Assembly: GCA_018402725.1 (NCBI GenBank)
Contig: JAGYII010000009.1
Span: 1 to 50,609, forward strand
DNA: 50,609 bases
Source: Candidatus Izemoplasma sp.
Lineage (GTDB): Bacteria; Bacillota_I; Bacilli_A; Izemoplasmatales; Izemoplasmataceae
Direction of reading: 5' to 3'
The notes below the pieces were generated by a model that saw nothing but the letters and a program-made list of their open reading frames with translations, did no database searches and was not told the DNA's origin. The position numbers were made by a program, and so were the translations under genes. Position 1 is the first letter of the stretch; each line of letters starts with the position of its first letter. Positions 3,335 to 21,374 of this stretch are shown piece by piece.

Positions 3335-4048
3335 ATGAAAACTAAAATCCCGCAATACGCATCCATTAGAGAGTATCTCAAGAAGATCGATCAACAAGTC
3401 TGAAAGAAGGCGAATTAATCCCTACGGAAGCGGAATTAATGAAGCTTTTTCTCAATTTCTCGTGTGACGATTCGCAAAGCCATCGACTTATTGGTATCAG
3501 CCCATTATCTAACCCGTAAAGCGGGTTATGGGACGACCGTCAACCCGGACCGGAGTTTGTTGTCAAATTTTACCTTGATTCAGAGCTTTACCAATGAAAT
3601 GAAAGAGATGGGTCTCGCCACTAAAACCATGCATGCCTCGGTGGAAAAAGTGGAAGCGAATGATCTTTTAGCCAGTATCTTTAAAATCAACCCCGGAGAC
3701 ATGGTTTATCACATCGTCAGAACCCGGGGCACGACTGTACCTCTCATTTATTCAGATACTTATCTACTCCCCGTCATCGACATCCCTTTAGACAGTGAAG
3801 AGATGTATGGGTCTCTCTATGCTTTTTTAGCCAAACATCAAATCTACTTTAGTTATTTTGAAGAGTTTGTCAGTGCGGTTCAGGCGAAGCAAGAAGTGAA
3901 GTTATTACTCCAAGTCGATGCGATCACCCCTCAGCTTAAACGGAAGCGTTTTAGCTATGATGTAACGGGCAAGTTAATTGAATACACAGAGACCTTTTAT
4001 AACGCCCAACAATACGAATACCGGACTAAAATCTTTTATAAAAAGTAA
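3335..4048 (+). pseudogene. GntR family regulator with UTRA effector domain (two frameshifts near N-terminus)
   Basis: The ATG at 3335 follows a TGGAGGGG ribosome site. The N-terminal winged helix reads MKTKIPQYASIREYLKK, then GELIPTEAELMKL and SRVTIRKAIDLL in three frames, with breaks near 3398 and 3447. From 3464 the remaining 194 residues are open and contain the UTRA ligand-binding domain (HutC subfamily; VYHIVRTRG, PLIYSDTYL, YTETFYNAQQYEYRTKIFY). UTRA regulators sense small sugars or sugar phosphates. It lies directly upstream of the carbohydrate operon, and a shared 15-base word in both promoters suggests it controls that operon and itself. The breaks resemble single-base errors. Confidence 0.82.
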
Positions 4049-4124: not shown

Positions 4125-6129
4125 ATGCAAAAACTTTATGGTTTTTTTATACTAACAATCTCATCGCTTGCTTTAATTGGGTGCCAAGAAGGTGAAAGCA
4201 TGGAAGAAGAGCCCTTAGAACTCCCCCCATGCCCCTATGAGTATCGATTAGAAAAAGACGCAAAGATGCCGATTCAATCGATCAGTGCTCCTTATTCAAC
4301 CGTGACCGGTCTTTTAGAGGCGGTCATTACCCCGTGTGAACAAAATGAATTGACCGCTTTATTTACTGAATCCACCTTAAGAACCCATCAAATCTTTTTG
4401 ACTTTAGATGCGATTTATCCCATTGAACAGATGCACCTTGATTTGACCACCTTAGGTGTTTTTGATATCCGGATTGAAACCTCCCTAGATGGCGTTAAAT
4501 ATTCAGCATTGACCGCGATGGCTTCCACCGAAACTTCAAAAAACTTTGAGGGCCATTATGCCCGTAACATTAAACTGATTTTCCCCACTCAAAACGACGT
4601 CACCCTTCACCAAATTGCTTTTACCTTAGCTGAAGGCTACCGAGTCCTTTTAGATGAACCCTTTAGCAAAGCCTTTTTTAAAGAAGAAGGGTGGACCGGG
4701 GCTGATGGTATCTTTAGCTTTGATTTAAACGGACGCGATACGTTAAATGCTCCAAATCCAAACACCGCATTTATCTTTTCAGATACGTTTGTTGGAGGGG
4801 TGAACCCCTCTACTCAACAAAGAATTGCGCCTAAGCTGATTAACAACTCACTTGCCTATTACAACAAAGAGGCGTTAGAGCCCTGGACCTTTGTTTACAC
4901 TCGAACTGAAAAAGCCCTCTTTTTAGCCGACGCTTATCTAAATCATCTCCCTTTTCAACTGCTCTCCCCAGAAGGCCTTGATATTTCTTCTCACATCAAC
5001 GGGCGCGTAGATCCGTTGACGACGTCAACCTGGTTGACGGATGATTTTGATGCGACCCTTCAAATCTCGTTTAATACCTTAACGGATGTTAAAGCCCTTC
5101 ATCTTTGGAATCATCCTGATAAGACCTCTTACATTTTAGAAGTCGCTGTGTATATCAAACAAAACGATACCTGGACGTTTTTAAAAAATGCCTCCCTTGA
5201 GCCGTTTAATCAAGCGGGGTCGGTGTCGGCGTCGATTGAAATTAATCAAGCCGTAGAGGCCATCGAGTTAAGAGTCTTAGGTCATGAAGAAGGCCCTTAC
5301 ATCGGATTATCCAAACTCTTTGTGGAAGGGTTAGAAGGTCCTTTATTTCCAGTCCTAACCGCCCCTTATGTAGAACTTCCCCTCAGTAAAGACGATCAGA
5401 GTGCGAGACTTTGGCTTCAAGATGGCATTGTCATCGGTTCAAACTTATATGTCTTTCCGATCTTAGTGAAAGATGAAGCGAACTTTTTTAGAGTCGATAA
5501 TGTCGGTCTAATGGAAATCCCGATTGTCGATGGCGTACTCCACCATGAAGCGACTGCGTATCTCCACACGCCACTTCAAGTGTATACCGAGGATGGCGGC
5601 ACGATTTTCTTCGGGGCCGGCGTCATGGACCACCGGGACATCGATGGTTATATCTATGTCTATGGCTATAAGGATTTCGGCGGTCGTCAACTCATCGTAG
5701 CCCGTGTACAAGAAGAGGACTTTTTAGATTTTAATGCCTGGACGTATTTTGACGGCACGGATTTTAAGAAAGATATTCGCAGCGTCCAAGGCATCATGAC
5801 CGGCGTCTCCGCCGAGCTCAGTGTGTCTTATATGGGGATGCATTTGAAAACCCTATCTCTTAGTGTCGATGAAAACCACCACCTCAGGGACCGTGAGTTA
5901 TGCCTTATCAGATACGCCGTTTGGCCCTTTTGATGCCTGGGTTGATATTTATCAAGCCTTAGAACCTCAGTTTCTAGACGCCTTTACGTATAACGCTAAA
6001 ATCCATTATCACTTGTCTTCAGAAGATACGATTTATATCTCTTATAACGTCAATAGTATTGGCTTTGCGGCGTTTGTTGATGCCAACATCTATTATCCTC
6101 GGTTCATTCGCTTAGACCGGATTAAATAA
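4125..6129 (+). CDS. Uncharacterised lipoprotein, paralogue A (one frameshift)
   Basis: Starts with a lipoprotein signal (LALIGC, Cys20), so it should sit on the outer face of the membrane. Residues about 50-170 look like a discoidin-type beta-sandwich and a second such segment lies near 300-400. The remainder carries DGIFSFDLNG, FSDTFVGGVNP, LWLQDGI, FGAGVMDHRDIDGYIYVYGY and, after the break, SDTPFGPF, YNAKIHYHLS and YYPRFIRL. The same motifs, in the same order, occur in the next gene. The main frame ends at 5933; a single shift between about 5836 and 5860 joins it to the frame ending at 6129. The motif FxDTFVG recalls DUF4185/DUF5005-type proteins and propeller glycosidases; I do not assign a reaction. 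Confidence 0.75.
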
Positions 6130-6142
6130 AAAAGGAGACCCC

Positions 6143-7852
6143 ATGAAGCCTCATCACATTCTCTATCAACAGCCCCATTTAAAAGGTCCCGTAAAGATTA
6201 AGTTGGGCGGTGTTTACCCGGTCACGGTCAAAGATGTCAAAGCCGCTTTAGTTCACCGGTTTATTGATGATGAACCGTCCACCACCTTGTATGCGAATCG
6301 TCTTGAACTTGAACTCTCTCAAGACCAAACCATTGAAGTCGTGCTTGAACCTGGATTTTACGCTGAAAAAGATGAAGCCTTTACCGCCCAATTTTTAAAA
6401 GAAGATTTATGGCGGGGAGGAGATGGCATCTATTCCTTTAATCTAAATCAGGGCGTTGATGGTTTTGACGCGCCAAAGGATTCAAATACGCTTTTCGTCT
6501 TTGGGGATACTTTTGTTGGTGAAATTAATCCCGAGACCTTTAGACGTCTTGAACCGACCCTGATGCCCAACAACAGTTATGCCTTAATGAAAGCCGAATC
6601 GATTTCATTTCATTTAGAAAAAGCCGATAATCATTCGGTTAAAAACGTCTTTGATTTAGAACCCCGTTACGCCAAAAAAGGGACATCGATTGAAAATGTG
6701 CTTGATGATAACGAAACCTTATATCTCAGTGCTGATACCGATGAAGACGTGGTGATCTTTATTGACCTCCACCACCAAAAACCCGTTGATACGCTGGAAA
6801 TTGGTCATTACGATGACCCTGATTTTAAAGAAACCTCGGTTCGGGCCTTTCAAAAGATGGAGATTTATCAAAGTCATAACCATGTGACCTATGAACTCGT
6901 TAAAAGAGTCGATCTATCACAGCCCCAAGGACCGATCACGTCGATTGAGGTCAACCTAAACGCGCGCTACATTAAATGTGTGATCAAGAAGCACCGTCCC
7001 CTTGTTGGATGTCGTTACCTTGGACTCAGTTATCAAAATCAACGCTATATTGATTTTGATATCGCGGTCAATCAAGTCTTTTTTGAAGCCCCCTTGCATG
7101 CCTGGTTATGGCTTCAAGACGGGATTATCTTAGATGATCATTTCTATTTCTATCCGATGCGAGTCATCGGGGATCAAACCCAACCTGAAGGCCTACAATT
7201 TAAAGTCTTAAGCACGATGATCTTTAAAGTTCCTTTTACGCAAAAAGGGCTTCAGATTGAAAAGCTTGAGCAAAAACCGATGCGCAACTTTTATGATCAT
7301 CAAGGCAAAACCATCATGTTTGGAGCGGCCGTCATGAACCATCAAGACATAGATGGCTACATTTATATGTATGGTTATCAATCTCAAATGGGTTTTCGTC
7401 AGCTCTTAGTCTCCCGGATTAAAAAAGAAAACCTCTGGAATCTCGATGCGTATGATTACTTTGACGGACAATCCTTTACCCCGGATTTCATGAAAGCCGC
7501 CCCGGTCTTAGACCACGTCTCGTGTGAAATGAGTGTGTCATACCTCAATGAAGGCCCCCACCAAGGAAAGTACATCGCGGTCATGACCTTTGACACCAAT
7601 ACCCGTTATGTCGCTTTTTCCATCGGTGAAACGCCTTATGGGCCCTTCACCCCCCCTCAAAAAATATATGTCACCCCTGAACCTGATATTTTTAAATCAA
7701 CGACCTACACGTATAACGCCAAAGCCCATCCCCACTTATCCACCGCCACCGACATCTTAGTCTCTTATAATACCAATACCTATAACTTTGACCACAATAT
7801 GAGTCATGCCCACATTTACCGCCCTCGCTTTATTCGTCTAAAAACCATATAA
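6143..7852 (+). CDS. Uncharacterised cytosolic protein, paralogue B
   Basis: A 569-residue protein with a good AAAAAGGAG site, 13 bases after the preceding gene. It has no signal peptide or membrane helix, unlike paralogue A, so it should act in the cytoplasm. Shared blocks are GGDGIYSFNLN, FGDTFVGEINP, WLWLQDGII, FGAAVMNHQDIDGYIYMYGY, EMSVSYL, ETPYGPF, YNAKAHPHLS and YRPRFIRL. The many invariant Asp, Glu and His residues in these blocks suggest a catalytic domain, plausibly a propeller-type carbohydrate enzyme. A discoidin-like insert lies around residues 195-290. Family function is unknown to me. The pair probably arose by duplication, one copy working outside and one inside. Confidence 0.78.
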   Translation: MKPHHILYQQPHLKGPVKIKLGGVYPVTVKDVKAALVHRFIDDEPSTTLYANRLELELSQDQTIEVVLEPGFYAEKDEAFTAQFLKEDLWRGGDGIYSFNLNQGVDGFDAPKDSNTLFVFGDTFVGEINPETFRRLEPTLMPNNSYALMKAESISFHLEKADNHSVKNVFDLEPRYAKKGTSIENVLDDNETLYLSADTDEDVVIFIDLHHQKPVDTLEIGHYDDPDFKETSVRAFQKMEIYQSHNHVTYELVKRVDLSQPQGPITSIEVNLNARYIKCVIKKHRPLVGCRYLGLSYQNQRYIDFDIAVNQVFFEAPLHAWLWLQDGIILDDHFYFYPMRVIGDQTQPEGLQFKVLSTMIFKVPFTQKGLQIEKLEQKPMRNFYDHQGKTIMFGAAVMNHQDIDGYIYMYGYQSQMGFRQLLVSRIKKENLWNLDAYDYFDGQSFTPDFMKAAPVLDHVSCEMSVSYLNEGPHQGKYIAVMTFDTNTRYVAFSIGETPYGPFTPPQKIYVTPEPDIFKSTTYTYNAKAHPHLSTATDILVSYNTNTYNFDHNMSHAHIYRPRFIRLKTI

Positions 7853-7863
7853 AGGAGAACGTT

Positions 7864-8712
7864 ATGGCCTGGAACCGCAAAACCAAACGACGTGTCTATC
7901 ACACGATTTTACACGCTGTCATCATTTCACTCAGTCTTGTCTTTACGTTTCCTTTTTTGTGGATGTTATTTACGGCGCTTAAAACCCCGCAAGAGTTACT
8001 CCAAGGAACGGCTCAATTCTTCCCGAGTGATCCACAGTGGGATAATTTTGTGACCGCTGTCACCACCATTCCGTTTTTACTATACTTAAGTAATTCCTTA
8101 CTGATTGTGACCAGTGTCATTGCGGGGACCTTATTTTCTTCAACCACCGCAGCCTATGCCTTTGCGAAACTGCGATGGAAAGGTCGAGACAAGTGGTTCT
8201 TAGTGATGCTCGCAACGATGATGATTCCCCTTCAAGTCATTTTAATTCCGATGTACATCATGTACGCCCGGATTGGCTGGTTAGGGACCCGTTTTCCGCT
8301 GATTATTCCTGCCTTTTTTGGAGGCGGAGCGGCCTTTTATATTTTCTTACTCCGGCAGTTTTTCAAAGGGATCCCGAAAGAACTCTCAGAATCGGCGATC
8401 ATTGATGGGGCCAGTTACATTCAAATCTTTACACGAATTATGTTGCCACTCTCTAAACCTGCGATTATTACCGTCGCCTTATTTACTTTTTTAGGAACGT
8501 GGAATGACTATTTTGGTCCCCTCATCTTTTTAAGTAACCCGGACCAATGGACGCTGGCCTTAGGACTGAGGGCCTTCCAGCTCCAGTTTGGCGGCCGCTA
8601 TGACTTGATGATGGCAGCCTCCATCCTCATCATGCTGCCGACCCTCATTATCTTTTTCTTAGCTCAGAAGCAGTTTATCGAAGGCATCACCTTTACCGGA
8701 ATAAAAGGTTAA
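7864..8712 (+). CDS. Sugar ABC transporter permease, MalG-type (CUT1)
   Basis: A 282-residue protein with six predicted helices. The cytoplasmic EAA loop reads SESAIIDGASYIQIFTRIML followed by PLSKP (about residues 176-200), which docks the ATPase. The C-terminal FIEGITFTGIKG is the classic end of MalG/LacG-type permeases. It belongs to the carbohydrate uptake transporter 1 family. The order permease G, binding protein, permease F is unusual, since the binding protein most often comes first. No ATPase gene is in the operon, so it probably shares an MsmX-like ATPase encoded elsewhere. Starts 11 bases after the preceding gene with an AAAGGAG site. Confidence 0.93.
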   Translation: MAWNRKTKRRVYHTILHAVIISLSLVFTFPFLWMLFTALKTPQELLQGTAQFFPSDPQWDNFVTAVTTIPFLLYLSNSLLIVTSVIAGTLFSSTTAAYAFAKLRWKGRDKWFLVMLATMMIPLQVILIPMYIMYARIGWLGTRFPLIIPAFFGGGAAFYIFLLRQFFKGIPKELSESAIIDGASYIQIFTRIMLPLSKPAIITVALFTFLGTWNDYFGPLIFLSNPDQWTLALGLRAFQLQFGGRYDLMMAASILIMLPTLIIFFLAQKQFIEGITFTGIKG

Positions 8713-8725
8713 AAAGGAGAAACCC

Positions 8726-10015
8726 ATGAAAAAGAAATTATTATTATTGGTTACCATGCTGTCATTCATTAGCGTCCTTGCCGCTTGTGGCGATCCTGCG
8801 AATGAGGGCAAAGTCGAACTTAACTTTTGGCATATGTCCCCCGTTGGAAGTGAAGGCTTTAGAGAAATGAGAGCCCTCATCACTGCGTTTAATGAAAGCC
8901 AAGATGAGATTGTTGTCGTCGGCACGGGATTTTCTTTCTGGGATTACTGGGATAAAATCAACATCGCGATTTCCTCAAGAACGGCTCCCGACCTTGGTTT
9001 TCATACCATCGATAACATGATCACACGGGCGGAAGCAGGAGTCTTACATAATATCTCAGAACTCATGAGCCAAGACACAAGTGCTAACAATATCGAAATT
9101 GATCAATTTAGAACCTCACAACTTGATTTTTTAACCTACAACGGAGATCTTTACGCCTTACCCTTATCAGCCACGACCCGCGTTTTATACTACAACTTAG
9201 ATATGTTTGAAAGCTTAGGGTATGGGGTGGATGATGTCCCGAATACCTGGGATGAACTTCAAACCATGGCCCGCGAGTTTGATGTCGTTGAAGACGGTCA
9301 AATTACCCGTCTAGGCTTTGACCCTACTTATGGAAACGCAACCTATCATGGCTGGTTATGGCAAACCGGTGAAGACTTTTTTGATGCCGACTTAAATCCA
9401 ACGTTAAATACCCAAACGCATATTGACGTTTTAGACTGGATTGTTAATTTCAATGAGATTTATACCCGGAATCAATTGGCAAGCTTTGGCGAATCCAATC
9501 AACTCTAGGGATCAATGTCTTTGCGGCTGAAAAAGCTGCGATGATTGTCGATTCAGATGGCCATATCGCGTCATTGAAGAAGCTGGTGCGACCTTTAAGT
9601 ATGGTGTCGCCCCCATTCCATTACTGGATGAAAACGGGATTAGAGGAACTGGGAAGTGGGTTCGATTGAACTTTATAACAACCAAAAATGAAGACGCTAA
9701 GAAAATGGCTGCCTTTGAATTTTTAAAATACTTGATGGCCTATGAAACCCAAATCGAATTTGCGGACGCCTCAGGGCTGGTTAACTGCATATATTCAATG
9801 GTAGGATTACACCGTTGATAAAACCGATCTTAAGACAAATCCTAAACGAAGTGGACTATGCCATGATAAAGCCTTGTCCCCTACGCTCCTTCACATGGCA
9901 TGCGGCTGATTGGCAAACCTATTACACCCAGGCTCAGTCGATTCAACCCCGGCAGAAGCCTATGATGCCTGAAACTTTACTTAGAGAAAACCACCGCGAA
10001 TCGGCGCGAGACTAA
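8726..10015 (+). pseudogene. Sugar ABC transporter substrate-binding lipoprotein, frameshifted C-terminus
   Basis: The first 260 residues (to 9508) are intact: a lipoprotein signal ending LAAC (Cys21), then a family 1 extracellular solute-binding fold with NFWHMSPVG, APDLGFHTIDNM, YNGDLYALPLSATTRVLYYN and DVPNTWDELQ. After 9508 the protein continues in several frames, with GINVFAAEKAAMIVDSDGH, LNFITTKNEDAKKMAAFEF and EVDYAM still recognisable. The exact end is unclear; TAA at 10013-10015 overlaps a possible permease ATG, but a longer end near 10050 is also possible. It would capture an oligosaccharide outside the membrane and deliver it to the flanking permeases. Confidence 0.82.
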
Positions 10016-10753
10016 TGAAGCAAATTACAATCAGTGGGTTAAAGAGCAGAAAATAGAGCCGGGTACTTATTTGCGGGTCCTGGATTTTAGGGATCATTGT
10101 TTTATGCGTTTCCTTTTGGCTTCGCTTTATTTGTCGGTCTATTGATTGCCTTATTACTGGAATAATAAATCAAGGGATGAGTATTTACTGACGATGTTCT
10201 TTCTCCCAAACGTTGTTTTGATTGTTGCCTTATCCTTATTATGGCTGTGTTATTTCAACTGTCCCTGGGCTCATTAATGAACTGTTTGATCCGGCTTTAT
10301 CGAAGGAAATAGTCGAACCGCTTCGCCGGCACCCGCGAATCCACTCCAAAATTACCTTAATTTAATGGGGTTATGGACGGTCGGGGGTCGATGATTATTT
10401 ATCTCGCCCAGATGCAAGACATCCCTGACTAGCTATATGAGTCGGGCTGAGATTGACGGCGGGTTGGGCCTTAAAAAAACCATTTACATTACCTACCCTT
10501 AATGACGCTCTCTGATTTTCTTTAATTTATTATCGGAACTGGCAGCTTCCAGGTCTTTTACCTCGCGTACATTGTCACTGGCGGCGACCGTCACGCTCAA
10601 CATATATTATTTGCGTAATATCTATTTGACAAATGATCAACGACCAAAACATGGGCATGGCCAGTGCCATGGCCTGGGCTTACTTCATGATTGTATTAGT
10701 GATTAAGGATGGCAGGCTTAAAACTCAATAAATATGTCATCTATCCCCGGTGA
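10015..10753 (+). pseudogene. Sugar ABC transporter permease, MalF-type (CUT1), heavily frameshifted
   Basis: No long open frame, but joined frames give a MalF/UgpA-type permease. Pieces are WILGIIV near 10080-10105, YYWNNKSRDEYLLTMFFLPN near 10154-10210, SVPGLINELFDPALSK near 10260-10308, the EAA loop SRAEIDGGLGLKKTIYITYP near 10441-10500 and NDQNMGMASAMAWAYFMIVLV near 10635-10702, ending KLNKYVIYPR with TGA 10751-10753. It would pair with the MalG-type permease at 7864-8712. At least eight indels are needed. The start is approximate: an ATG at 10014-10016 gives MKQITISGLKSRK before the first break. Confidence 0.72.
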
Positions 10754-10815
10754 CGAATCGTAACCCCTTAAGAAACGTTTAGCTTTTAACGATAGCAATA
10801 AAATAGAGGAACCAA

Positions 10816-11650
10816 ATGAAAAGAAAGTTAGCATTTTTAAGCATTATGGCATTTTACCATGGTTTTATCGGCCTGTTGGTCCGGTGAAATTGGCGCCGAT
10901 ACCTCGTGATGGATGCCGATGGGCGCTGGGCACCGTGATTTTTATGTCGTGGTCTATGATGAATCCTTAAGTGACACTCCATCATTAACCTGAACGATCC
11001 TGATGGCGCTAAAGGCAATGGTCCTGTCTTGAATGTTCAACACATCGAAGGCGGCATTCCGGCAATTCAAGATTGGCTCGGAAGATAACACCCTGCCTTT
11101 TTAGAAGTCCTCCCAATGAGGAACTGAAGGCGTCCAAAGAATTTTCACCGTTCGGATGACCTTGACTCGTTTGAAGACTTTGGGTCAATACGAGCAAATT
11201 TAAAGTGGTTTATCCCTAACTTAAGTTGGAGTGATTTCACTGATGCTGAAAAACTGACCTCACCACTGTTGGAAGAAGCATGCCTCTAAAGTCACTCCTC
11301 ACTGAATCCAATGTGATTTTACAAGCGTCCTCGACCAAGCGATTGACGGGACGAGACCAATCTTCTTAGAAGCTAGCTTAGCTGGTTTTGCTGACAAGAC
11401 TTCGCTTTCACAATTTGCAACCTATAACTTAACATTAGGCGAAGAGACGCTTAATATTGTGTCTGAATACGATCCTGCGGTATGATTCCAATGGTCGTTT
11501 AGGCTGGCGGCTCATACTGACTAAATCATCATTCACTTAACAAGCACCACCGAACTCCCCGCCATGAACACCTTATTATTTGTTTTAATTGGAGCCGCGG
11601 TTGTCGCTGTTGCGGGTGGCGCGTACTTCTTTACTAAGAAAAAAGCTTGA
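10816..11650 (+). pseudogene. Exported protein with C-terminal membrane anchor, frameshifted
   Basis: The ATG at 10816 follows an AGAGGAACC site and begins MKRKLAFLSIMAF, an export signal that breaks after about 13 residues. Readable segments include DFYVVVYDES, INLNDPDGAKGNGPVLNVQH, VVYPNLSWSDFTDAEKLTSP and LTESNVILQ. The last 30 residues, read in one frame from about 11550, are TELPAMNTLLFVLIGAA plus a hydrophobic stretch and KKKA, a tail anchor like that of Gram-positive surface proteins but without an LPXTG motif. I do not recognise the family. It is expected to be a surface protein held by its tail and involved in handling the operon's substrate. Confidence 0.6.
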
Positions 11651-12255
11651 CCCTACCATCGTCTCTTAAAGATGCCCTCAAAATCTACTTAGATTTTATT
11701 TACGTGACGCTCCTCTGGTTTGTTGCATCCTTCCTAGGGATTTTGTTATCCCTAGGAAGTGCAACCCTAGCGTTTTATCGCGTGATGGCATCGCTTAGTC
11801 AACCCAAAAAACAAACCTATATCTTTCCCACCTTTATCACCGAATTTAAACAAAAAATAGTCAAGCGGATCTTATTTACGCTCCTGTTTTATGTTGACCT
11901 ATTTGGTTTCTTTGTGTTGTTTCAAATCGCCATAAATCAAAACATCACCGTGCTTATTATTGTCTTAAGTATTTTATTGTATGAATTTGTGATGGGGATG
12001 ATTTATTATTTAGGATTGAACGCCTTATTTGTTTTAGAACCCGGTCAATCTTTAGTCTCTATTGTCTTTATTGCGATGCATCAAAATATTTGGCGAAATC
12101 TTCAATTACTATCGCCCTTGTTCATTATGGTTTTTGCTTTTTTCTATGTGCATCCAACCACCGTTATCTTTTTATTTAGCGGTGTGGTTTGGTTACAGTT
12201 GGTCATATTGAAAAAAGCCTTTCTAAAAACAGATCAACTCATCGATGAGGAGTAG
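11647..12255 (+). CDS. YesL-like membrane protein (DUF624)
   Basis: A 202-residue protein with five to six hydrophobic helices. The start LYVTLLW-type helix with a following GSATLAFYRVMASL segment resembles DUF624/YesL proteins, which accompany CUT1 importers and glycan-degrading genes in Bacillota and whose role is unsettled. The start is a TTG at 11647 that overlaps the stop of the preceding gene; an upstream site is weak, so the start is uncertain. Being intact in the middle of the operon, it shows that the damage upstream is local. Confidence 0.7.
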   Translation: MTLPSSLKDALKIYLDFIYVTLLWFVASFLGILLSLGSATLAFYRVMASLSQPKKQTYIFPTFITEFKQKIVKRILFTLLFYVDLFGFFVLFQIAINQNITVLIIVLSILLYEFVMGMIYYLGLNALFVLEPGQSLVSIVFIAMHQNIWRNLQLLSPLFIMVFAFFYVHPTTVIFLFSGVVWLQLVILKKAFLKTDQLIDEE

Positions 12256-12256
12256 C

Positions 12257-13960
12257 ATGCGATATCTCGACTTTCATTCTAATTACGACAAAACCCCCAC
12301 CACTCGCTATGAGACCGGTCAAGACGTCTATGCGGGACTGAAGCCCCTTTTAAACCACATCACTTCAAAGGCTTCAAGCGTCATCGCGCTTGAAACCTAC
12401 CCAGGGGTGGATGTAGATACCATTTTAGAGGCTTTGAGCGCTTATAAAGATTTTCAAATCATTGACATGCGAACCCTCAGCATTGGCAAAGAAGCCTACC
12501 TTAAACGCTTTAAGGATGACTTTACCGATGACCGTGTTTTTGGGATAAAAACCACCAAAACCATGGCGGATATTTTTCAAAACCTCCCCCCCACTAAACC
12601 TCTAACCCCCACCATCATTGTCGGCTTTGGCGCTGCGCTATATCCGCATGATGTTTTATATTATGGGTCGATTCATCGCTATGAACACCAGTTAAGAATG
12701 CGTCAAGGGCAACCCAATTATTTACTTGAAAATAACACCGAAGATATTTTAACCAAGTACAAAATTGCCTATTTTGTAGAATGGGTGATCGCGAATCAAC
12801 ATAAACGCAATCTCCTTTCAAAGATTGATTATTTCATTGAATGGAACGACATCGCCGCTCCAAAAATGGTTTCGTTTGAAGTGTATCAAGACGCTTTAAA
12901 AAGGTTTACCAATCAGCCCTTCCGGTTAGTGCCTTACTTTGACCCCGGGGTCTGGGGCGGACAGTGGATGAAAGAAGTATGTCAGCTTAATCCCCATGAA
13001 AAAAATTATGCATGGTCGTTTGATGGGGTCGTCGAAGAGAACTCGTTGCGTCTATTAATTAATGACGTTTTGTTTGACGTGCCCGCCCAAGATTTGATTG
13101 ATCTATACCCAGAACCCATTTTAGGTCCTCATGTCTTTGAGCATTTTCAATATAATCTTCCGATTCGCTTTGATTTACTGGATACGATGGAGGGACAAAA
13201 TCTCTCACTTCAAGTCCATCCGACGCGGTCCTACATCAAAACGCATTTCAACATGCCCTACACCCAAGATGAATCGTATTATATTTTAGATGCTTTAGAG
13301 GATGGGGCGGTATATTTAGGATTTAAAGAAGCCATCCATCCTGACGAATTTGAAGCCGATTTAAGACATTCTGAAAGCACCCAAAGTTTTGACGCGTTAA
13401 AATACGTTAATGTCTTTCCCGTGAAAAAACACGATCACTTATTGATTCCCGCAGGGACGATTCATTGCAGTGGCAAGAATACCATGGTCTTAGAAATCAG
13501 TGCCGCCGCTTATATCTTTACCTTTAAACTGTGGGACTGGAACCGCCTCGGCTTAGACGGCAAGATGCGCCCGGTTCATATCGAGCACGGCTTAAAAAAT
13601 ATTGATTACAGTAAAACCACCCAAATCATCCAAGACCACCATATCAACACACTCACCGTCTTGGATGACCACCTTGAAAAAACGGGCCTAGACCATGAGA
13701 CATTTTTAGATTCATATAGGCTAAGTTTTAAAGGGACGTACCAGTATACCTTTGCGCCCACGGTCCAAATGGCGAATCTCGTATCCGGTCAAAAAATGAT
13801 GATGCGCTCGATGAGTGGGGCGTTTGAACCCCTTGAAATTCACTACGCTGAAACGTTTATTATTCCCGCCCAGGTCCAAGACATTGAGTTTGAATGCTTA
13901 GAAGAATGCAAAGTCGTCTTTGCGGAGGTCAACCCATCATGGTCGAAACCGTCTTATTAA
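12257..13960 (+). CDS. manA: Class I mannose-6-phosphate isomerase, long two-domain form
   Basis: A 567-residue enzyme that interconverts mannose 6-phosphate and fructose 6-phosphate in the cytoplasm. The isomerase half starts near residue 235 (FDPGVWGGQWMKE) and contains the zinc ligands in LSLQVHPT, DESYYIL and IPAGTIHCSG. The first 230 residues are an extra domain (ETYPGVD, DDRVFGIKTT, TIIVGFGAALY, KYKIAYFVEWVIANQHKR) found in long ManA-like proteins of Bacillota and resembling a nucleoside-kinase fold without a visible P-loop. I prefer the ATG at 12257, preceded by GAGGAG, over the ATG at 12245. The first gene product in the operon with a firm metabolic role, it points to mannose-containing substrates. 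Confidence 0.9.
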   Translation: MRYLDFHSNYDKTPTTRYETGQDVYAGLKPLLNHITSKASSVIALETYPGVDVDTILEALSAYKDFQIIDMRTLSIGKEAYLKRFKDDFTDDRVFGIKTTKTMADIFQNLPPTKPLTPTIIVGFGAALYPHDVLYYGSIHRYEHQLRMRQGQPNYLLENNTEDILTKYKIAYFVEWVIANQHKRNLLSKIDYFIEWNDIAAPKMVSFEVYQDALKRFTNQPFRLVPYFDPGVWGGQWMKEVCQLNPHEKNYAWSFDGVVEENSLRLLINDVLFDVPAQDLIDLYPEPILGPHVFEHFQYNLPIRFDLLDTMEGQNLSLQVHPTRSYIKTHFNMPYTQDESYYILDALEDGAVYLGFKEAIHPDEFEADLRHSESTQSFDALKYVNVFPVKKHDHLLIPAGTIHCSGKNTMVLEISAAAYIFTFKLWDWNRLGLDGKMRPVHIEHGLKNIDYSKTTQIIQDHHINTLTVLDDHLEKTGLDHETFLDSYRLSFKGTYQYTFAPTVQMANLVSGQKMMMRSMSGAFEPLEIHYAETFIIPAQVQDIEFECLEECKVVFAEVNPSWSKPSY

Positions 13961-14634
13961 TTGCCTCACTGATTATCATCATCGGCTTTTACCGTTACAG
14001 TAAACTCCAATACCGAAAAGGGGCTGATGATTTATTTCAACTCTTTGCGAGAGGGGCGTATGATCAAAAAGTCGCGATGTTTAAAGCCCTCAATGCCGAT
14101 AGTCTTCCCGGAGGTGTGGTCTTTGTGGGGGATTCCATCACCCAAGATTACAATGTCTATGAGTTTTTTAAAGGAAAAAACGTCTACAACCGCGGCATCG
14201 GCGGTGACACCAGTGAAGGGGTCTTAAACCGGCTGGATGAAAGTGTCTTTCAGTTAAAACCAAAGGCCGTCTTTTTACTGATTGGCACCAATGACCTTGC
14301 CTCCCCACAGTTTTCAATCGAAAAGACCTTTACTAATATCCAAGCCATCATCCAAAACCTTCAAGCCTTTGACCCCGCGATGAAGATTTATCTCCTTTCC
14401 ATTCTTCCCGTCAATAGCACGATTGATGCCACCACGGTCGGCTTAAGAAACAACTCCCTGATTGAAAAACTCAATCAAAAGCTAAAAGGTTTAAAAGCGG
14501 TTCATTTCATTGATCTTTATCCTTCGCTTTTAGATGCGAATCAACACCTCTCAGAAAAATACACCGTTGAAGGCCTTCACTTAAATGCGCAAGGCTACCA
14601 TGTCGTCACTGACGTTCTTAGAAAATACATTTAA
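13939..14634 (+). CDS. Membrane-anchored SGNH/GDSL hydrolase
   Basis: A 231-residue protein with one N-terminal helix (VETVLLIASLIIIIGF) that anchors it to the membrane. SGNH blocks follow: GDSITQDY (nucleophile Ser), the Gly block NRGIGGDTSEG, IGTNDL (Asn), and EGLHLNAQGY (His). The usual catalytic Asp three residues before the His is Glu here. Such enzymes remove acetyl or other acyl groups from carbohydrates or lipids, which would suit deacylation of an acetylated glycan such as mannan. The start at 13939 has a GCGGAGG site and overlaps manA by 22 bases. Confidence 0.85.
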   Translation: MVETVLLIASLIIIIGFYRYSKLQYRKGADDLFQLFARGAYDQKVAMFKALNADSLPGGVVFVGDSITQDYNVYEFFKGKNVYNRGIGGDTSEGVLNRLDESVFQLKPKAVFLLIGTNDLASPQFSIEKTFTNIQAIIQNLQAFDPAMKIYLLSILPVNSTIDATTVGLRNNSLIEKLNQKLKGLKAVHFIDLYPSLLDANQHLSEKYTVEGLHLNAQGYHVVTDVLRKYI

Positions 14635-14684: not shown

Positions 14685-14713
14685 AAAGACGACTTAAAGT
14701 TCGTCTTTTTTTT
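14685..14713 (+). terminator. Terminator of the plus-strand sugar operon
   Basis: AAAGACGA (14685-14692) pairs with TCGTCTTT (14701-14708) and is followed by T to 14713. It works on the plus strand and overlaps the last codons of the opposing lacI gene. Confidence 0.85.
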
Positions 14714-15689
14714 CGGGGTTTGGTCCGGTTGAATCTCGTTCAATTAAACTGCAGTCTAAGCTGATCTTTTTAAAATGATTTCCCGTTGTATCATTGATCC
14801 GCATCATTAAGATCGATAAGGCTTGTTCAGCCATGTAAGTTCTTGAGACCCGCATCGTACTGATGGTTGGGTTTGAATCGCTGCTATAAGAGACATCATC
14901 AAAGCCCATCACACTGATATCTTGTGGGACTTTTAATCCTTTTGAATGGAGTTGTTGAATTAGTAAATAAGCGGTATGGTCATTATTACAGACGAAGGCG
15001 GTCGGGTAATGGTCCCCCAAATCAAACTGGACCTTTAAACCATGACCGTTTCGGTCATCGATCGATTTGATTTCAGCTTCACAGTTAAATTCGGTCATCG
15101 CTTTACAATACCCGAAATAACGATCGTTGATGGAAGAGGTGGCGTTTAAAGTTCCGATAAAATGAATCCGTTCATGTCCGTGGTTAAGTAAATGGGCGGT
15201 GGCCTCATAAGAAGCAATGAAGTTGTTACTTAAAATCATATCCGCGGCAATCCCGTGCTCATAAAAGTCAATACAGATAAAAGGGACTTGATTAAGCTCT
15301 AAATGAAGTAAGAAGTCCCGGTGGAATTGACCCATTAAAGCAACGCCATCAAAATGACTTAAATCAAAATTTTGAATGAAGGATAAGGCTTCGGTATCTT
15401 TCACCACGGTTAATGAGATTTGACACAAAAAGGCTTGGGATTGTTCGTTCAGTCGAAAAAACAATTCGTTATAAAACGTATCGCCTTTGGATAAAAAAGA
15501 TTCCTTTGAAAGAACGATGATGTTCGTTCTTTTTTTCTTGGGATAGACATAGCCGACCGCTTTCGCGGCTTCAAAGACTTTGCGCCGCATCGACTGGGAA
15601 ATATCAGGGCTATTTTGAAAGGCTTTAGAAACCGTCATCGCCGAGACATTTAAGGCTTTCGCCACATGTTCCATGGTTATTTTTTTCAT
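14694..15689 (-). CDS. LacI family transcriptional regulator
   Basis: A 331-residue regulator. Residues 1-25 hold the LacI helix-turn-helix (ITMEHVAKALNVSAMTVSKA), followed by the hinge region and a periplasmic-binding-like sugar domain (FDGVALMGQF, HERIHFIGTL, CNNDHTAYLLIQQ, VMGFDDVSYS). It is the last gene of the minus-strand sugar operon, so it most likely senses that operon's substrate. The first helix residues fit recognition of a CG-centred palindrome like the site at 25453, although a separate CcpA could bind there too. The start ATG lies six bases after the stop of the preceding small membrane gene. Confidence 0.92.
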   Translation of the reverse strand: MKKITMEHVAKALNVSAMTVSKAFQNSPDISQSMRRKVFEAAKAVGYVYPKKKRTNIIVLSKESFLSKGDTFYNELFFRLNEQSQAFLCQISLTVVKDTEALSFIQNFDLSHFDGVALMGQFHRDFLLHLELNQVPFICIDFYEHGIAADMILSNNFIASYEATAHLLNHGHERIHFIGTLNATSSINDRYFGYCKAMTEFNCEAEIKSIDDRNGHGLKVQFDLGDHYPTAFVCNNDHTAYLLIQQLHSKGLKVPQDISVMGFDDVSYSSDSNPTISTMRVSRTYMAEQALSILMMRINDTTGNHFKKISLDCSLIERDSTGPNPEKKDEL

Positions 15690-15694
15690 ACTTT

Positions 15695-15956
15695 TTACCT
15701 ATCGATTAAGAAGATAGAGATCACGATTGTGAGACTCATCAGTTGGATTAAAAAGGGAATCAACGTCCCTTTACGTTTGACTTATAAACGACGATACTCG
15801 TAAAGATAAATGACACCACCACCAACATCCCCGCTAAAAAGTCATCACCTGAGAAATAAAATCAAGCGGCCCTTGAAAGACAAAGACCACAATGTAATGG
15901 CGTTAATAAGACTTAATAAAGATAAGCCATAAAGAAGCGGTTTTCAGGGACTTCAT
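15695..15956 (-). pseudogene. Small membrane protein, frameshifted
   Basis: The minus-strand ATG at 15956-15954 follows GGAGAG and overlaps the stop of the DUF1861 gene (TGATG). Joined frames give about 90 residues with two hydrophobic helices: MKSLKTASLWLIF, LINAITLWSL, LAGMLVVVSFIFTSIVVYKS and LIPFLIQLMSLTIVISIF, ending LIDR. At least three indels interrupt it. No family is recognised. It could be an accessory membrane component of the sugar operon. Confidence 0.5.
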
Positions 15957-16860
15957 CAGCTCTCCTTAAAAGGCGGTGGGTTTGGGTAATGCGCTGAACT
16001 TCCGCATCAGACGCTCCCATAAATATACCAAAAAGGGTTTTCAAAATGCAATCCTGCAGTGAAAATGACATCTTTGAAGGTCATCTCTTTTAAAAGGTCT
16101 GGTAAAACTGCGAGCGTTCTGCGATGATTTTAATGTCTTTGTAGGTTCTTTTCAGGGATCATCGTCCTGAAGCTCATCGTGTGTATTAATAATGGCGAAT
16201 CCGCTCTTGATCAAAAATCGCAACGTGACCCACCACCCCAATTGAACCGTCCTCTAATAATAGACAATCATTCACCCCGGCCCAGGAAGCTTCTTCAAAT
16301 AGATCAATAAGCGGGGCTTTGGTCATGACCTCACGGGTCAAGTCTTTTAAATCATCGACGACGGTAAACCCAATCACGCCGAAACGGGCTAAGCCGCCTT
16401 GAGGCCGGGTGAAGACGCCAATTTTACCGTTCGCTAGCTCAATCAAGCGGACATCTTTCATCCCGGTAGGGGCGTCGACTAAGTGCGTGAGTTGATCAAG
16501 TGTGGGCCCATGGTAAAACCGGGTAAACCAGGTTTTGGTCGTCCAGTCCACAAAAGTTCCCCCGAGGATATAAGTGCCATGGATGACGGTTAAAAAAGGA
16601 TCTTGTAAGGGGTAGGCTTCAAAGTCTTTAATAAGACCATATGACGTCTTGGTGATTCTTTTAAATAGTCCAATGATGGACACTTCAGACGTTCTTTTTT
16701 CAATCCGCCCAAACAGATGATAGGCGCCTTCATAAAAAAAGGGGATGGATGGATTATAGACATCAAACCCATCCACGCCAATAAATGCAATCTTTTCAGG
16801 GGTGTGATTCTTAGTCGTGGCCCTAAAGTCTTTTAGTAAATCGTTAATCAATATATTCAT
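15956..16860 (-). pseudogene. DUF1861 protein, GH130-associated (frameshifted C-terminus)
   Basis: The first 224 residues (16860-16186) are intact and typical of DUF1861: IAFIGVDGFDVYNPSIPF, HLFGRIEKR, LQDPFLTVIHGTYILGG, GMKDVRLIELANGKIGVFTR, RFGVIGFTVVDDL and EASWAGVNDCLLLEDG. Beyond 16186 the remaining third is readable in shifted frames: MTFKDVIFTAGL, WYIYG and SDAEVQRIT. The fold is a five-bladed propeller related to GH130, and the gene overlaps the GH130 gene by 17 bases, so the two products probably act on the same mannoside. The family's reaction is unknown to me. At least three indels occur in the last 230 bases. Confidence 0.8.
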
Positions 16861-17920
16861 ACGGCAACATGTCTCCTAAAAGGTCCGCCATCGGTATATG
16901 GGCTAAAGCGAGGGTTGAATCCGCCGCCCCATAATAAATATAAACGATGTCGTCTTTTAATACTACCCCGCAACTAAAGACTACATGATCAAAAAATCCC
17001 GTGAGTTCATAGGGGGCTTCAGGTTTTAATAAAGGATGTTTTAAGAAATGCGTGATCAAAGTATGGTCATTAAAATCAGTGATAAACGCTGAGAGTTCAT
17101 AGCGGTGTTTAGCGTCCGCTCCATGAAAGATATGAAGCCAACCCAAAGATGTTTTAATCGGCGGGGCTCCGGCTCCAATCCGGCCATTTAGATATCCAAA
17201 ATCATCGGCTCTAGCGATGCATTGATGATGGCCCCAATCAGTCAAGTTATCAGACGTTGCACTCCAGATGTTTAATCCCCCAATCCCAAAAGGAACCGGG
17301 CGGTGATAGGCGACATAACGGCCATTTATTTTTTCTGGGAATAAAACGACGTCTTTATTTTCAGGGGGAAGAATCACCCCTTGTCTTTCAAAATGAATAA
17401 AATCTTGCGTCGTCATTCTTGAGACGCTCACGCCCCGGCTTGAAACCGAGGTATAGACAATATGAAAGGTATCGCCGATTTGCGTAATCCGGGGGTCTTC
17501 GATGCCAAAGTTTTCATAAAGCCCTTCGGGAAGAATCGGGGTTTCATCAATCGTAAAATGGACCCCATCATCACTGCGAGCGACCCGGAGATGAGAAAGG
17601 GAAGTTAAATAAGCCACCCGTCCATTTTGATTGGCTTTTTTATAGGCCACAAACCGTGAATCCGAATAATCAAATTCATGATCTTCTTTAGGGTTGAGTA
17701 ATTTAATCGTGATTTCATTGTGGCGGTTCATTAACGGAATCCCAATTTGGTGGTCTTTAAGGGCCGTTTCAGCCACTCTAAGGAGTAATAAGACTTGGCC
17801 TTGAAAGATTACAGCGCCGGCGTTAAAAACGCCAATGACCGTGAGTTCAGGGTGAGAAGGAGAAAGATCCGCTGGACTAAGTAATGGATTTAAAGGATGT
17901 CTATTCATATCACGTCTCAT
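16844..17920 (-). CDS. GH130 beta-mannoside phosphorylase-like enzyme
   Basis: A 358-residue cytosolic enzyme without signal peptide. GH130 hallmarks are FNAGAVIF near the N-terminus, RVAETALKDHQIG, YENFGIEDPRIT with the proton-donor Asp, HRPVPFGIGGLNIW, GRIGAGAPPIKTSLGWLHIFHG and YIYYGAADSTLALA. The family uses phosphate to split beta-mannosides, giving mannose 1-phosphate; some members are hydrolases. The linkage (beta-1,4 to GlcNAc or mannose, or beta-1,2) cannot be told from sequence alone. The ATG at 17920 overlaps the stop of the preceding lipoprotein gene (ATGA); an in-frame ATG at 17908 is an alternative. It is the key enzyme that assigns this operon to mannosides. Confidence 0.9.
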   Translation of the reverse strand: MRRDMNRHPLNPLLSPADLSPSHPELTVIGVFNAGAVIFQGQVLLLLRVAETALKDHQIGIPLMNRHNEITIKLLNPKEDHEFDYSDSRFVAYKKANQNGRVAYLTSLSHLRVARSDDGVHFTIDETPILPEGLYENFGIEDPRITQIGDTFHIVYTSVSSRGVSVSRMTTQDFIHFERQGVILPPENKDVVLFPEKINGRYVAYHRPVPFGIGGLNIWSATSDNLTDWGHHQCIARADDFGYLNGRIGAGAPPIKTSLGWLHIFHGADAKHRYELSAFITDFNDHTLITHFLKHPLLKPEAPYELTGFFDHVVFSCGVVLKDDIVYIYYGAADSTLALAHIPMADLLGDMLPYEYID

Positions 17921-19872
17921 TCTATCGTTAGGATGATGCTGCCTGTGTCTTTTAAGCCAGAGACCATCGTAATTTCATACGAGAAGCGACGATTCCCTTT
18001 TAAGCCTAGGTTCGTTAAATCGATTAACACGCTATTCGTATCTGAAGAAGTAAAGGTCTGAGTTCCGATGCGGACCGTGATGGACTGAATCGCATCATTT
18101 TCAACATCGGAATAATAGTCCCATTCCAAGCGAGTGGGTCCGGATACGGTTTGGTTCGGCGTTAAGTTAGAAACGCCAGTGTGAACTTGGAACTGGGTTA
18201 AAACGTGTCCGTTTTCTAACCTTAAGGTTAAATCATCGACGATCAGCTGGGTCCCGACCGGGAGTTCGACGACGATGACACTTTCTAAAACGCCTAGATC
18301 AAGGCTTAAAGCGCCGGTATGGTTTTTAGAAAGGTAGGTTTTACTCACAAGATCGTATAAGTCTAAGGGCCCTTCGGTGCTTGGGAGGTAGGTGACGGTT
18401 TTTACTTCTGGATGCGGATTAAAAAGTAAATACTGAGGGAAAGGGTCATGGCCCAGCATCGCCATCCGGTTGATCCAAATCTTTAAAAGACCTTCAACAT
18501 CAGTCGGCTCAATCATCACCCCTAACATCCCGGTGCTGACGCCACTGTAAATCGATAGGTCGGTGTTGGCCCATCCCGTAATCATCGGATCGCCCCCAAT
18601 CCAGGGGGTCCGTCCGTTATAGCCATTAATAATCCCTTCATAAGGGACACTATGACCGGTCACCTCATTGAAGGTGCCACATTGTTCAAAGTACGTACAT
18701 GAATGAAAACGAGGATCCGATTGGTCAGAAAAGAAGTAACGACCATTACTGGTGAGATGAAGGAGCCATTGACCGGTGGCGCTTGCGTATCGCGCATCAT
18801 ATGAAACAAAGGAGGACACAATAAAAGCACTTGCAAAAGTGTTCATCGAAAACGCATAGCCCCCGCGGTCTCTGGTACTTCCCATTAAGCCGTCCATGGG
18901 GAATTCTCCCCACGTTCCAACCACGGACCCCCACCCCCCACGAGGGACAGAAAGTCCATCGAAGTTTTCGTTTAGGAATTGCGAGAGGTCATAATTTTTA
19001 CCGTGTTGAGCATTTAAATAAGCCCCTAAAAAAGGTGCGTAATAATGTAAGATTTCATAAAGGGGACTACTGAAATAATTTGAAATGTAGTCCATCGTGT
19101 TGATCAAGGCGTCGAGGTATTTTTCTTCCCCGGTCCATTGATACCCGTAATACATCAACATCCCAATCCCGACCGCACTATCAGGTTCTTGCCAAATCCC
19201 GTTGTTATAAGGTTGCATCGTCGTAAAGTCAAACGAGGTAAAGTTATAATCCGGTCCTTTTTCTTGAGCTTGGAAGACTAAGTGCGCTTGGTACCATTGT
19301 TCGATGTTGGAAAGTGCTTGTTCACGGACGACGGTTGCACCTGGATAAAGCGCCGAGACCTGAGTAAATAAAATCCCGGGATAAATCATATACCATAACG
19401 AACTGTCGATGGAGACCCCACGGGTTCCATTGAGAATAACTCGCTGATTCGCATTATAAAACTGACTTAATTTAGCGACATAATCATCGCCATCATAGTC
19501 GGTCATATCAAGGCCAAGCAACGAGGCACTTAAAACGGCCGCAATGGCCGCAACCCCTTCAACATACCCACGATCATCCCCAACATACGCCCCAAAACGA
19601 AATTCATTTCGAGTGTCATCTTTGGTGATTAAAGGTAAAAAATCACCCGTCGCTTCCGTGTCAAATAACCATTGATGGAAGGTTAAGGCTTTTTCTTGAT
19701 AGTCCATGAGTTCATAAGATGCTGGGAAATAACGATCATAATTAGAGATCCTTGCAATCGGTTTTTGATAGCTTAAAGACATCGGGGGATACTCCACTTC
19801 TAAACGCGAAGCACACCCTGAAAAAACGAAAGAAGCTATGAGGATGAGGAAGGTTAGGATGAGTTTTTTCAT
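17917..19872 (-). CDS. Large lipoprotein with predicted alpha/alpha-barrel glycosidase fold
   Basis: A 651-residue lipoprotein (signal ending FSGC, Cys20). From about residue 60 to 500 it is rich in paired helices with Trp, Tyr and Gly motifs (SSLWYMIYPG, NNGIWQEPDSAVGIGMLMYYGY, TRDRGGYAFSMNTFASA, INGYNGRTPWIGGDP), the look of a six-hairpin glycosidase or lyase. The last 90 residues form an Ig-like beta domain. It is anchored outside, where it may trim the polymer before import. Start: ATG 19872 is preferred to an in-frame TTG at 19875; the AAGGAG site precedes both. I cannot name the CAZy family. Confidence 0.72.
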   Translation of the reverse strand: MKKLILTFLILIASFVFSGCASRLEVEYPPMSLSYQKPIARISNYDRYFPASYELMDYQEKALTFHQWLFDTEATGDFLPLITKDDTRNEFRFGAYVGDDRGYVEGVAAIAAVLSASLLGLDMTDYDGDDYVAKLSQFYNANQRVILNGTRGVSIDSSLWYMIYPGILFTQVSALYPGATVVREQALSNIEQWYQAHLVFQAQEKGPDYNFTSFDFTTMQPYNNGIWQEPDSAVGIGMLMYYGYQWTGEEKYLDALINTMDYISNYFSSPLYEILHYYAPFLGAYLNAQHGKNYDLSQFLNENFDGLSVPRGGWGSVVGTWGEFPMDGLMGSTRDRGGYAFSMNTFASAFIVSSFVSYDARYASATGQWLLHLTSNGRYFFSDQSDPRFHSCTYFEQCGTFNEVTGHSVPYEGIINGYNGRTPWIGGDPMITGWANTDLSIYSGVSTGMLGVMIEPTDVEGLLKIWINRMAMLGHDPFPQYLLFNPHPEVKTVTYLPSTEGPLDLYDLVSKTYLSKNHTGALSLDLGVLESVIVVELPVGTQLIVDDLTLRLENGHVLTQFQVHTGVSNLTPNQTVSGPTRLEWDYYSDVENDAIQSITVRIGTQTFTSSDTNSVLIDLTNLGLKGNRRFSYEITMVSGLKDTGSIILTIE

Positions 19873-19915
19873 CAAATAAGACTCCTTAACATTTTTTCAG
19901 GGGATTCGCTAGATG

Positions 19916-20473
19916 TTATTTCGTGTAGAAAACGGAAATTGAAGTAATTTGAACAAAGGCATCCGGACTACCGGCTGGGTAAATCCAGAAATGTAAGTCT
20001 AAGACAGTTCCGTAATCACTATACGTAACCCCAATGGAATCAGCGATATTTCCGCCGGCATATTGGTTCCATTTCATGTCATTGTCATTGATGATGTATA
20101 AGCCCCATGACTCTCCAACTAAATCAGAAAGAAGAGTTTGAACGCCCCATTTAAAGGCATCCGGTGATTCGTTAACACGGACTAAGAAGATGGGTTCTCT
20201 TGACAAGTCAAGGTTTAATGCAGGCGTTTGAACGCCGCCCCAACCATTAGGTCCTGCTTTGATGGTGACGAATCCACCGTCATGATCAACGCCCATGACA
20301 ACGCCCTGATCGACTTCGCCCCCAGGAGTGACCATAAGATCAAACAACGCGATCTCCTCGTAAGTAAAACTGTAGGCGAGTTCGTAGCCGCCTTCTTCAG
20401 CCGCCGCAGTATCACAGGCAGCTAAAACAAACATGCTGGTAAATAAAGCGGTAAGTAATAATAATTTTTTCAT
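19916..20473 (-). CDS. Small lipoprotein, predicted carbohydrate-binding beta-sandwich
   Basis: A 185-residue protein with a lipoprotein signal (VLAAC, Cys20). The mature part has alternating beta-strand patterns and surface aromatic residues (GPNGWGGVQT, DAFKWGVQTLL, SWGLYIINDND, LHFWIYPAG), like a carbohydrate-binding module. It lies between the permease genes and the large lipoprotein of the same operon and probably holds the glycan at the surface. No named family is recognised. Confidence 0.6.
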   Translation of the reverse strand: MKKLLLLTALFTSMFVLAACDTAAAEEGGYELAYSFTYEEIALFDLMVTPGGEVDQGVVMGVDHDGGFVTIKAGPNGWGGVQTPALNLDLSREPIFLVRVNESPDAFKWGVQTLLSDLVGESWGLYIINDNDMKWNQYAGGNIADSIGVTYSDYGTVLDLHFWIYPAGSPDAFVQITSISVFYTK

Positions 20474-20518
20474 TCTTTTTCTCCTATTTTTCTATTTTTT
20501 TTCAGCTTTCGCTGTTTG

Positions 20519-21370: not shown

Positions 21371-21374
21371 CGCA

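Follow-up and report, generated by a model that had tools for sequence, protein, structure and literature searches.

Two adjacent genes in a contig of Candidatus Izemoplasma sp. raise the question of why one bacterium should carry two related carbohydrate-operon proteins, one on its surface and one in its cytosol. The genes lie on the forward strand of a stretch of 50,609 nucleotides (contig JAGYII010000009.1, assembly GCA_018402725.1; here "the window"), the first at 4125..6129 and the second at 6143..7852. An earlier, sequence-only reading had suggested, as a plausible scheme, a duplicated enzyme that saccharifies a polymer in two stages. The answer we favour, with a little better than an even chance of being right, is that they are glycoside hydrolases that arose by an old duplication, belong to a subfamily of their own resembling glycoside hydrolase family 183 (GH183), and depolymerise a mannose-containing glycan in two stages.

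Homology, localisation and fold

The two proteins are homologues, with a similarity far above chance: the second aligns with the first in two collinear pieces, with E-values of 1.1e-46 (37%, query 64-469) and 2.0e-14 (42%). Both original open reading frame calls, 4125-5933 and 6143-7852, are present in the window, and so are all seven motifs that had been listed as shared. Given as first and second protein, these are DGIFSFDLN and DGIYSFNLN, FSDTFVGGVNP and FGDTFVGEINP, WLQDGI in both, FGAGVMDHRDIDGYIYVYGY and FGAAVMNHQDIDGYIYMYGY, ELSVSY and EMSVSY, YNAKIHYHLS and YNAKAHPHLS, and PRFIRL in both. Only the placement of two of them changes, as YNAKIHYHLS and PRFIRL of the first protein fall outside the annotated frame, past a frameshift. 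The frame of 4125 holds to about 5837, and the following frame, which encodes both motifs, runs from about 5848 to 6129. The relatives of the first gene at loci L038 and L039 are intact, and the window has small gaps against them right at 5837-5848.

A signal peptide with a lipobox (LIGC) is encoded at 4125..4184. This signal, MQKLYGFFILTISSLALIGC, occurs in the first protein and not in the second, as the sequence-only reading had it, and the division extends to the relatives, where all 34 first-type proteins have a lipobox (31 by rule, three by eye) and none of the 32 second-type proteins does. The outside/inside localisation of the pair is well supported.

AlphaFold models were built from alignments of relatives. 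The model of the second protein (569 residues) has a predicted local distance difference test score (pLDDT) of 94.3 and a predicted template modelling score (pTM) of 0.92, and that of the first protein's L038 orthologue has a pLDDT of 91.8 and a pTM of 0.88. The expected propeller is borne out in these models, with five blades. In VIA-align comparisons the second protein matched BACOVA_04882, a putative hydrolase (PDB 4hbs), with Z 33.0 (339 residues, 3.2 A) and the GH183 enzyme EndoMA1 with Z 28.4 (302 residues, root-mean-square deviation 3.3 A), and the next matches, to AraH2, GH159, GH43, GH68, GH62 and GH117, had Z 19.8 or less. The first protein's orthologue gave the same ranking, with 4hbs as best match and EndoMA1 at Z 27.6. 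Membership in GH43, GH32 or GH130, which had also been proposed as a check, was rejected: the window proteins have no Pfam match to these families up to E 1, and the fold scores are Z 20 or less against 33 and 28 for 4hbs and EndoMA1.

Profile searches gave a more divided result. The second protein passes the curated cut-off of DUF4185 (PF13810), at 57.5 bits against 39.5, as does the L035 relative of the first protein (43.7), while the first protein (36 in frame 0) and its L038 relative (27.1) stay below. The match of the second protein covers only 166-294 of the profile, so that a full-profile match failed; members of the subfamily score 27-65 bits over part of the profile, against 315-339 bits over nearly all of 1-309 for the GH183-type proteins of Gordonia and Tateyamaria. 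With DUF5005 (PF16396), where a match had been suggested, the first protein falls short (14.4 bits against 29.6) and some single-domain relatives pass. No NCBIfam match was found for either protein, nor a close relative in a viral structure library or PHROGs. Taken together, the predicted structures and profiles support well the assignment of both proteins as five-bladed propellers of the GH183 (DUF4185/DUF5005) superfamily, and a separate subfamily within it is well supported too. Neither a model lacking a propeller or a conserved pocket nor a hit to a known non-enzymatic family, the two outcomes named beforehand as refuting an enzyme, was obtained.

The propellers carry additional domains. 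Residues 42-168 of the first protein structurally match CBM32 domains, and in both proteins a discoidin/CBM32-like domain is inserted into the propeller; GH183 has a C-terminal carbohydrate-binding module instead. In the second protein the insert spans residues about 178-317 (6674..7093) and is indicated by a weak F5_F8_type_C_2 match (185-278) and by Foldseek matches to CBM32; in the L035 relative, F5_F8_type_C is above its cut-off. Third paralogues of about 410 residues lack this insert, and BACOVA_04882, at 406 residues, is too short for it.

Candidate catalytic residues and the age of the pair

EndoMA1 is a retaining enzyme in which Asp33 is the nucleophile and Asp51 the acid/base, with Glu243 also essential (PMC10509167), and DgGH4185b requires two aspartates 18 residues apart (PMC10115798). 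Residues were compared across 101 members (34 lipoproteins, 32 cytosolic forms and 35 single-domain or core sequences), and an Asp/Asp/Glu triad was found to be invariant in all of them and in every subgroup, in keeping with the earlier suggestion that invariant Asp/His/Glu clusters point to catalysis. In the first protein the candidates are Asp194 as putative nucleophile (GADGIFSF, 4704..4706), Asp220 as putative acid/base (FSDTF, 4782..4784) and Glu564 (AELSVSY, 5814..5816); in the second they are Asp94 (6422..6424), Asp122 (6506..6508) and Glu462 (7526..7528). Glu564 and Glu462 align exactly with Glu243, counted along the printed EndoMA1 residues, and the aspartate of FGDT/FSDT, which is common to GH183, aligns by sequence with Asp51. 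The GADG aspartate would be the equivalent of Asp33, to judge by motif and spacing. The two aspartates are 17 residues apart in the core forms and 18 in GH183 and in 4hbs, which shares the GWNGGDG and NDS motifs; a short insert widens the spacing to 27-28 in the pair. By analogy with these relatives, both proteins are likely to be retaining glycosidases.

The pair shares with the GH183 enzymes of Microbacterium arabinogalactanolyticum, Dysgonomonas gadei and mycobacteria the five-bladed propeller, the Asp...FGDT Asp pair, the Glu in xEMSV and a last-blade Tyr, but it falls in a clade separate from the GH183-type proteins compared, with a partial DUF4185 match and other invariant residues. W90, W323, D326, N525, K527, N545 and R562 are constant or almost constant across the subfamily and not in the compared GH183-type proteins. 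Near the first Asp and near W323, D326 and R562, the GH183 rows of the alignment consist mostly of gaps, and W90, W323, D326 and R562 have no aligned GH183 counterpart. The contrast is firm only for N525, K527 and N545, since there other GH183 residues stand opposite and elsewhere gaps do.

The duplication turned out to be ancient. A tree of 106 sequences places the lipoproteins (33 of 34) and the cytosolic forms in separate clades and sets five GH183-type proteins apart on long, fully supported branches; the characterised GH183 sequences are not among the taxa of this tree. Lipoprotein and cytosolic distances are correlated (Mantel r 0.92, with 0 of 2000 permutations as high), and the two genes are adjacent in about 30 loci from Acholeplasmatales, Izemoplasmatales and unclassified relatives. 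Given the parallel clades, the co-inheritance and the adjacency, the outside/inside split is old and has been maintained. The idea of a duplicated enzyme accordingly holds as to paralogues on either side of the membrane, but a recent tandem duplication was rejected on the two parallel clades and a mean identity of 30% between lipoprotein and cytosolic form within one genome. Matches occur in 19 of the 296 genomes sampled from the class, and a few of these matches are weak or partial.

The operon and its sugar

The sequence-only reading had the pair open an operon with a CUT1 importer, ManA and an SGNH hydrolase. All three are present, but the pair is preceded by a GntR/UTRA-type regulator gene (3464..4048; UTRA 1.8e-24), which belongs with it in most relatives too; homology to the L038 regulator orthologue runs up to 3335, with 79% identity over 3335-4045. 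After the pair, likewise on the forward strand, come a CUT1-type permease gene (7864..8712; BPD_transp_1, 90% identity to L038) and a gene for a sugar-binding lipoprotein (8726..10030; SBP_bac_8 9.1e-17), readable until 9508 and homologous until 9955. Homology to relatives then reveals the remains of a second CUT1 permease gene, its frames unreadable (10040..10760), and of a gene for a conserved lipoprotein of about 275 residues without family assignment (10816..11649). The operon continues with a DUF624 membrane protein gene (11647..12255; 7.8e-09), a long ManA-like mannose-6-phosphate isomerase gene (12245..13960) and an SGNH/GDSL hydrolase gene with an N-terminal membrane segment (13894..14634; Lipase_GDSL_2 2.2e-24). 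The C-terminal part of the long ManA is similar to the mannose-6-phosphate isomerase 1qwr (PDB; 8.4e-09, residues 221-546), with a TIGR00218 score of 27.8 bits, under the cut-off of 116.2; its extra N-terminal residues, about 220 of them, match no family.

This composition recurs. Among 21 loci with full context, the sugar-binding lipoprotein and DUF624 are found in 21, the permeases, the small lipoprotein and the long ManA in 20 each, SGNH in 18, a BadF-type kinase in 15, GntR and a second ManA in 14 each, AraC in six and GH38 in five. That this is a conserved import operon, common to many wall-less bacteria, is well supported; for single-domain relatives outside Mollicutes and Firmicutes no consistent operon was found. 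The kinase matches N-acetylmuramic acid/N-acetylglucosamine kinase best (2.2e-55), followed by hexokinase 2e2n at 1.4e-30. The small lipoprotein, encoded at L034 15182-16003 and in relatives, lies between importer and DUF624, has a C-terminal membrane segment and matches no family. Upstream of the operon, at L042 1220-2704 and L068 4495-6048, the kinase gene is flanked by O-antigen-ligase-like (Wzy_C) genes, which are odd for wall-less bacteria.

The broken genes downstream of the pair seem to reflect sequence quality. Between about 9500 and 11650, which takes in the end of the sugar-binding lipoprotein gene, the second permease and the small lipoprotein, indels occur every few dozen bases, and the flanking stretches read normally. 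The assembly is probably of low quality here, with gene decay as the alternative reading. Reassignment of a stop codon was rejected, as 9500-11500 has many indels in all frames and no in-frame TGA pattern. The transhydrogenase-like genes (by eye) at 1-2300 also look interrupted in several frames.

ManA points to mannose 6-phosphate in the pathway. Eight Izemoplasmatales-type genomes yielded 13 GH38 genes, and 11 of these lie no more than about 20 kb from the pair (counted from coordinates); in Izemoplasmatales GH38-like genes lie inside the operon. Homologues in Clostridiales and Izemoplasma adjoin canonical GH38 genes, those in Bacillus and Ignavibacteriales have a GH38 gene beside them, and GH92 lies near homologues in Mucilaginibacter and Lacticaseibacillus. 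The claim that the operon has no recognised hydrolase does not stand as regards the fold, since the pair is itself part of the DUF4185/GH183 superfamily, and GH38 genes join it in relatives. Both GH38 and GH92 went undetected in 16 of 31 carrier genomes, including the window's own, several of which are incomplete drafts; in these, no other gene of the operon than the pair is therefore a candidate for the cutting. Divergent GH38-like proteins, in which only the GH38N domain matches, are encoded at L035 1355-3784, L034 4115-6556 and L028 3534-5960. Their genes go with an AraC regulator in place of GntR in Izemoplasmatales-type operons, and a sequence search found no solved relative of them.

A second sugar cluster follows on the reverse strand at 14694-23089, with LacI, DUF1861, GH130, lipoproteins of 652 and 185 residues and another CUT1 importer. 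The GH130 protein is nearest the mannobiose phosphorylase model, at 398.7 bits and below the cut-off of 550. GH130 mannoside phosphorylases share a five-bladed propeller and mannose metabolism with the pair but match its fold far more weakly (Z about 18). The 652-residue lipoprotein adjoining GH130 (17917-19875, reverse strand) has no Pfam, NCBIfam or PHROGs match and is possibly an uncharacterised glycan-active enzyme.

Proposed pathway and competing explanations

Homology, fold, conserved residues, localisation signals, operon conservation and co-inheritance were computed, and a pathway may be proposed around them whose order of events is suggested by the neighbours only. At the cell surface, the lipoprotein would cleave a glycan containing mannose by a retaining mechanism, with Asp194 as nucleophile, Asp220 as acid/base and Glu564 assisting, while its CBM32-like domains would hold the substrate. 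The CUT1 importer would take up the fragments, the SGNH hydrolase may strip esters, and the cytosolic sister enzyme (Asp94/Asp122/Glu462) would degrade the fragments further. ManA, together with the BadF/NagK-like kinase of relatives, could then convert the hexose to fructose 6-phosphate for glycolysis. Geobacillus AbnA and AbnB are likewise enzymes of one family, one acting outside the cell and one inside, with an importer between them. The fold matches include AbnB (Z about 18), and the pair differs from both in family, these being inverting GH43 arabinanases acting on L-arabinan.

A mannose-containing glycan, cut outside and finished inside, is a plausible substrate, the sugar itself being suggested by the neighbours only. 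Several points weigh against it. To our knowledge, GH183 enzymes known to date act on D-arabinan and not on mannans. No measured activity was found for any subfamily member in the sources searched, and the open-licence PMC papers held nothing on DUF5005, on the function of BACOVA_04882 or on any DUF4185 mannosidase; BACOVA_04882, the closest solved relative, is uncharacterised and gives no substrate. The ManA and GH38 neighbours suggest mannose passing through the pathway and not mannoside cleavage by the pair, and a kinase nearest N-acetylmuramic acid/N-acetylglucosamine kinase leaves room for another sugar that could form part of the substrate. Finally, in the window's own copy the first gene is frameshifted and importer genes cannot be read.

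Some of these points could also mean that the same scaffold performs other chemistry or acts on another sugar, as a phosphorylase, a transglycosidase or a hydrolase of non-mannose furanosides or N-acetyl sugars, with mannose as a side component. GH130 phosphorylases and GH68 transfructosylases are indeed among the lower-scoring fold matches, and besides the kinase there is a GH20 gene adjoining the Mucilaginibacter homologues. We consider this unlikely, though it is the best of the alternatives, given that the Asp/Asp/Glu pattern matches GH183 and not those families and that nearly every locus has the long ManA.

Could the pair simply be ordinary GH183 endo-D-arabinanases that use the D-arabinan of actinobacterial necromass? 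In fold, only 4hbs matches better than EndoMA1, GH183 has the acid/base Asp, Glu and Tyr in common with the pair, the DUF4185 cut-off is passed, and a Gram-positive D-arabinan locus likewise has DUF4185 genes and an ABC importer (PMC10509167). Yet neither DUF2961/GH172 nor fucose isomerase was detected in the window's own genome as assembled (85% complete), and among carriers, where they occur in 7 of 30 and 5 of 30 genomes respectively, they are never within the operon, which is of a mannose type with ManA instead. The long branch apart from GH183-type proteins, the replacement of N525, K527 and N545 there and the unaligned W90, W323, D326 and R562 add to this, and we regard the explanation as improbable. 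Two features that were not found weaken the identity of the pair as GH183 D-arabinanases; they do not weaken the claim that it works like GH183.

A lack of catalysis in either protein or in both, with the lipoprotein binding glycans at the surface for the importer and the cytosolic form acting as a sensor, would fit the CBM32-like domains of both and the fact that lipoproteins beside sugar-binding proteins often bind glycans, but triad residues invariant in every aligned member are unexpected in a pure binder and make this very improbable.

On a bolder reading, the subfamily may be a new glycoside hydrolase family, with a retaining cleavage of a mannose-containing glycan that is not known from GH183 and a self-sufficient outside/inside pair in wall-less bacteria without classical mannosidases; this stronger claim we hold tentatively, at somewhat less than an even chance. 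A propeller subfamily spread over many phyla is now tied to a conserved operon that seems to supply a ManA-type pathway with its product, and a domain of unknown function becomes an enzyme that can be tested on a few candidate substrates. The arrangement also suggests a way for small wall-less sediment bacteria to live on glycan debris, using two enzymes from a single family, one outside the membrane and one inside.

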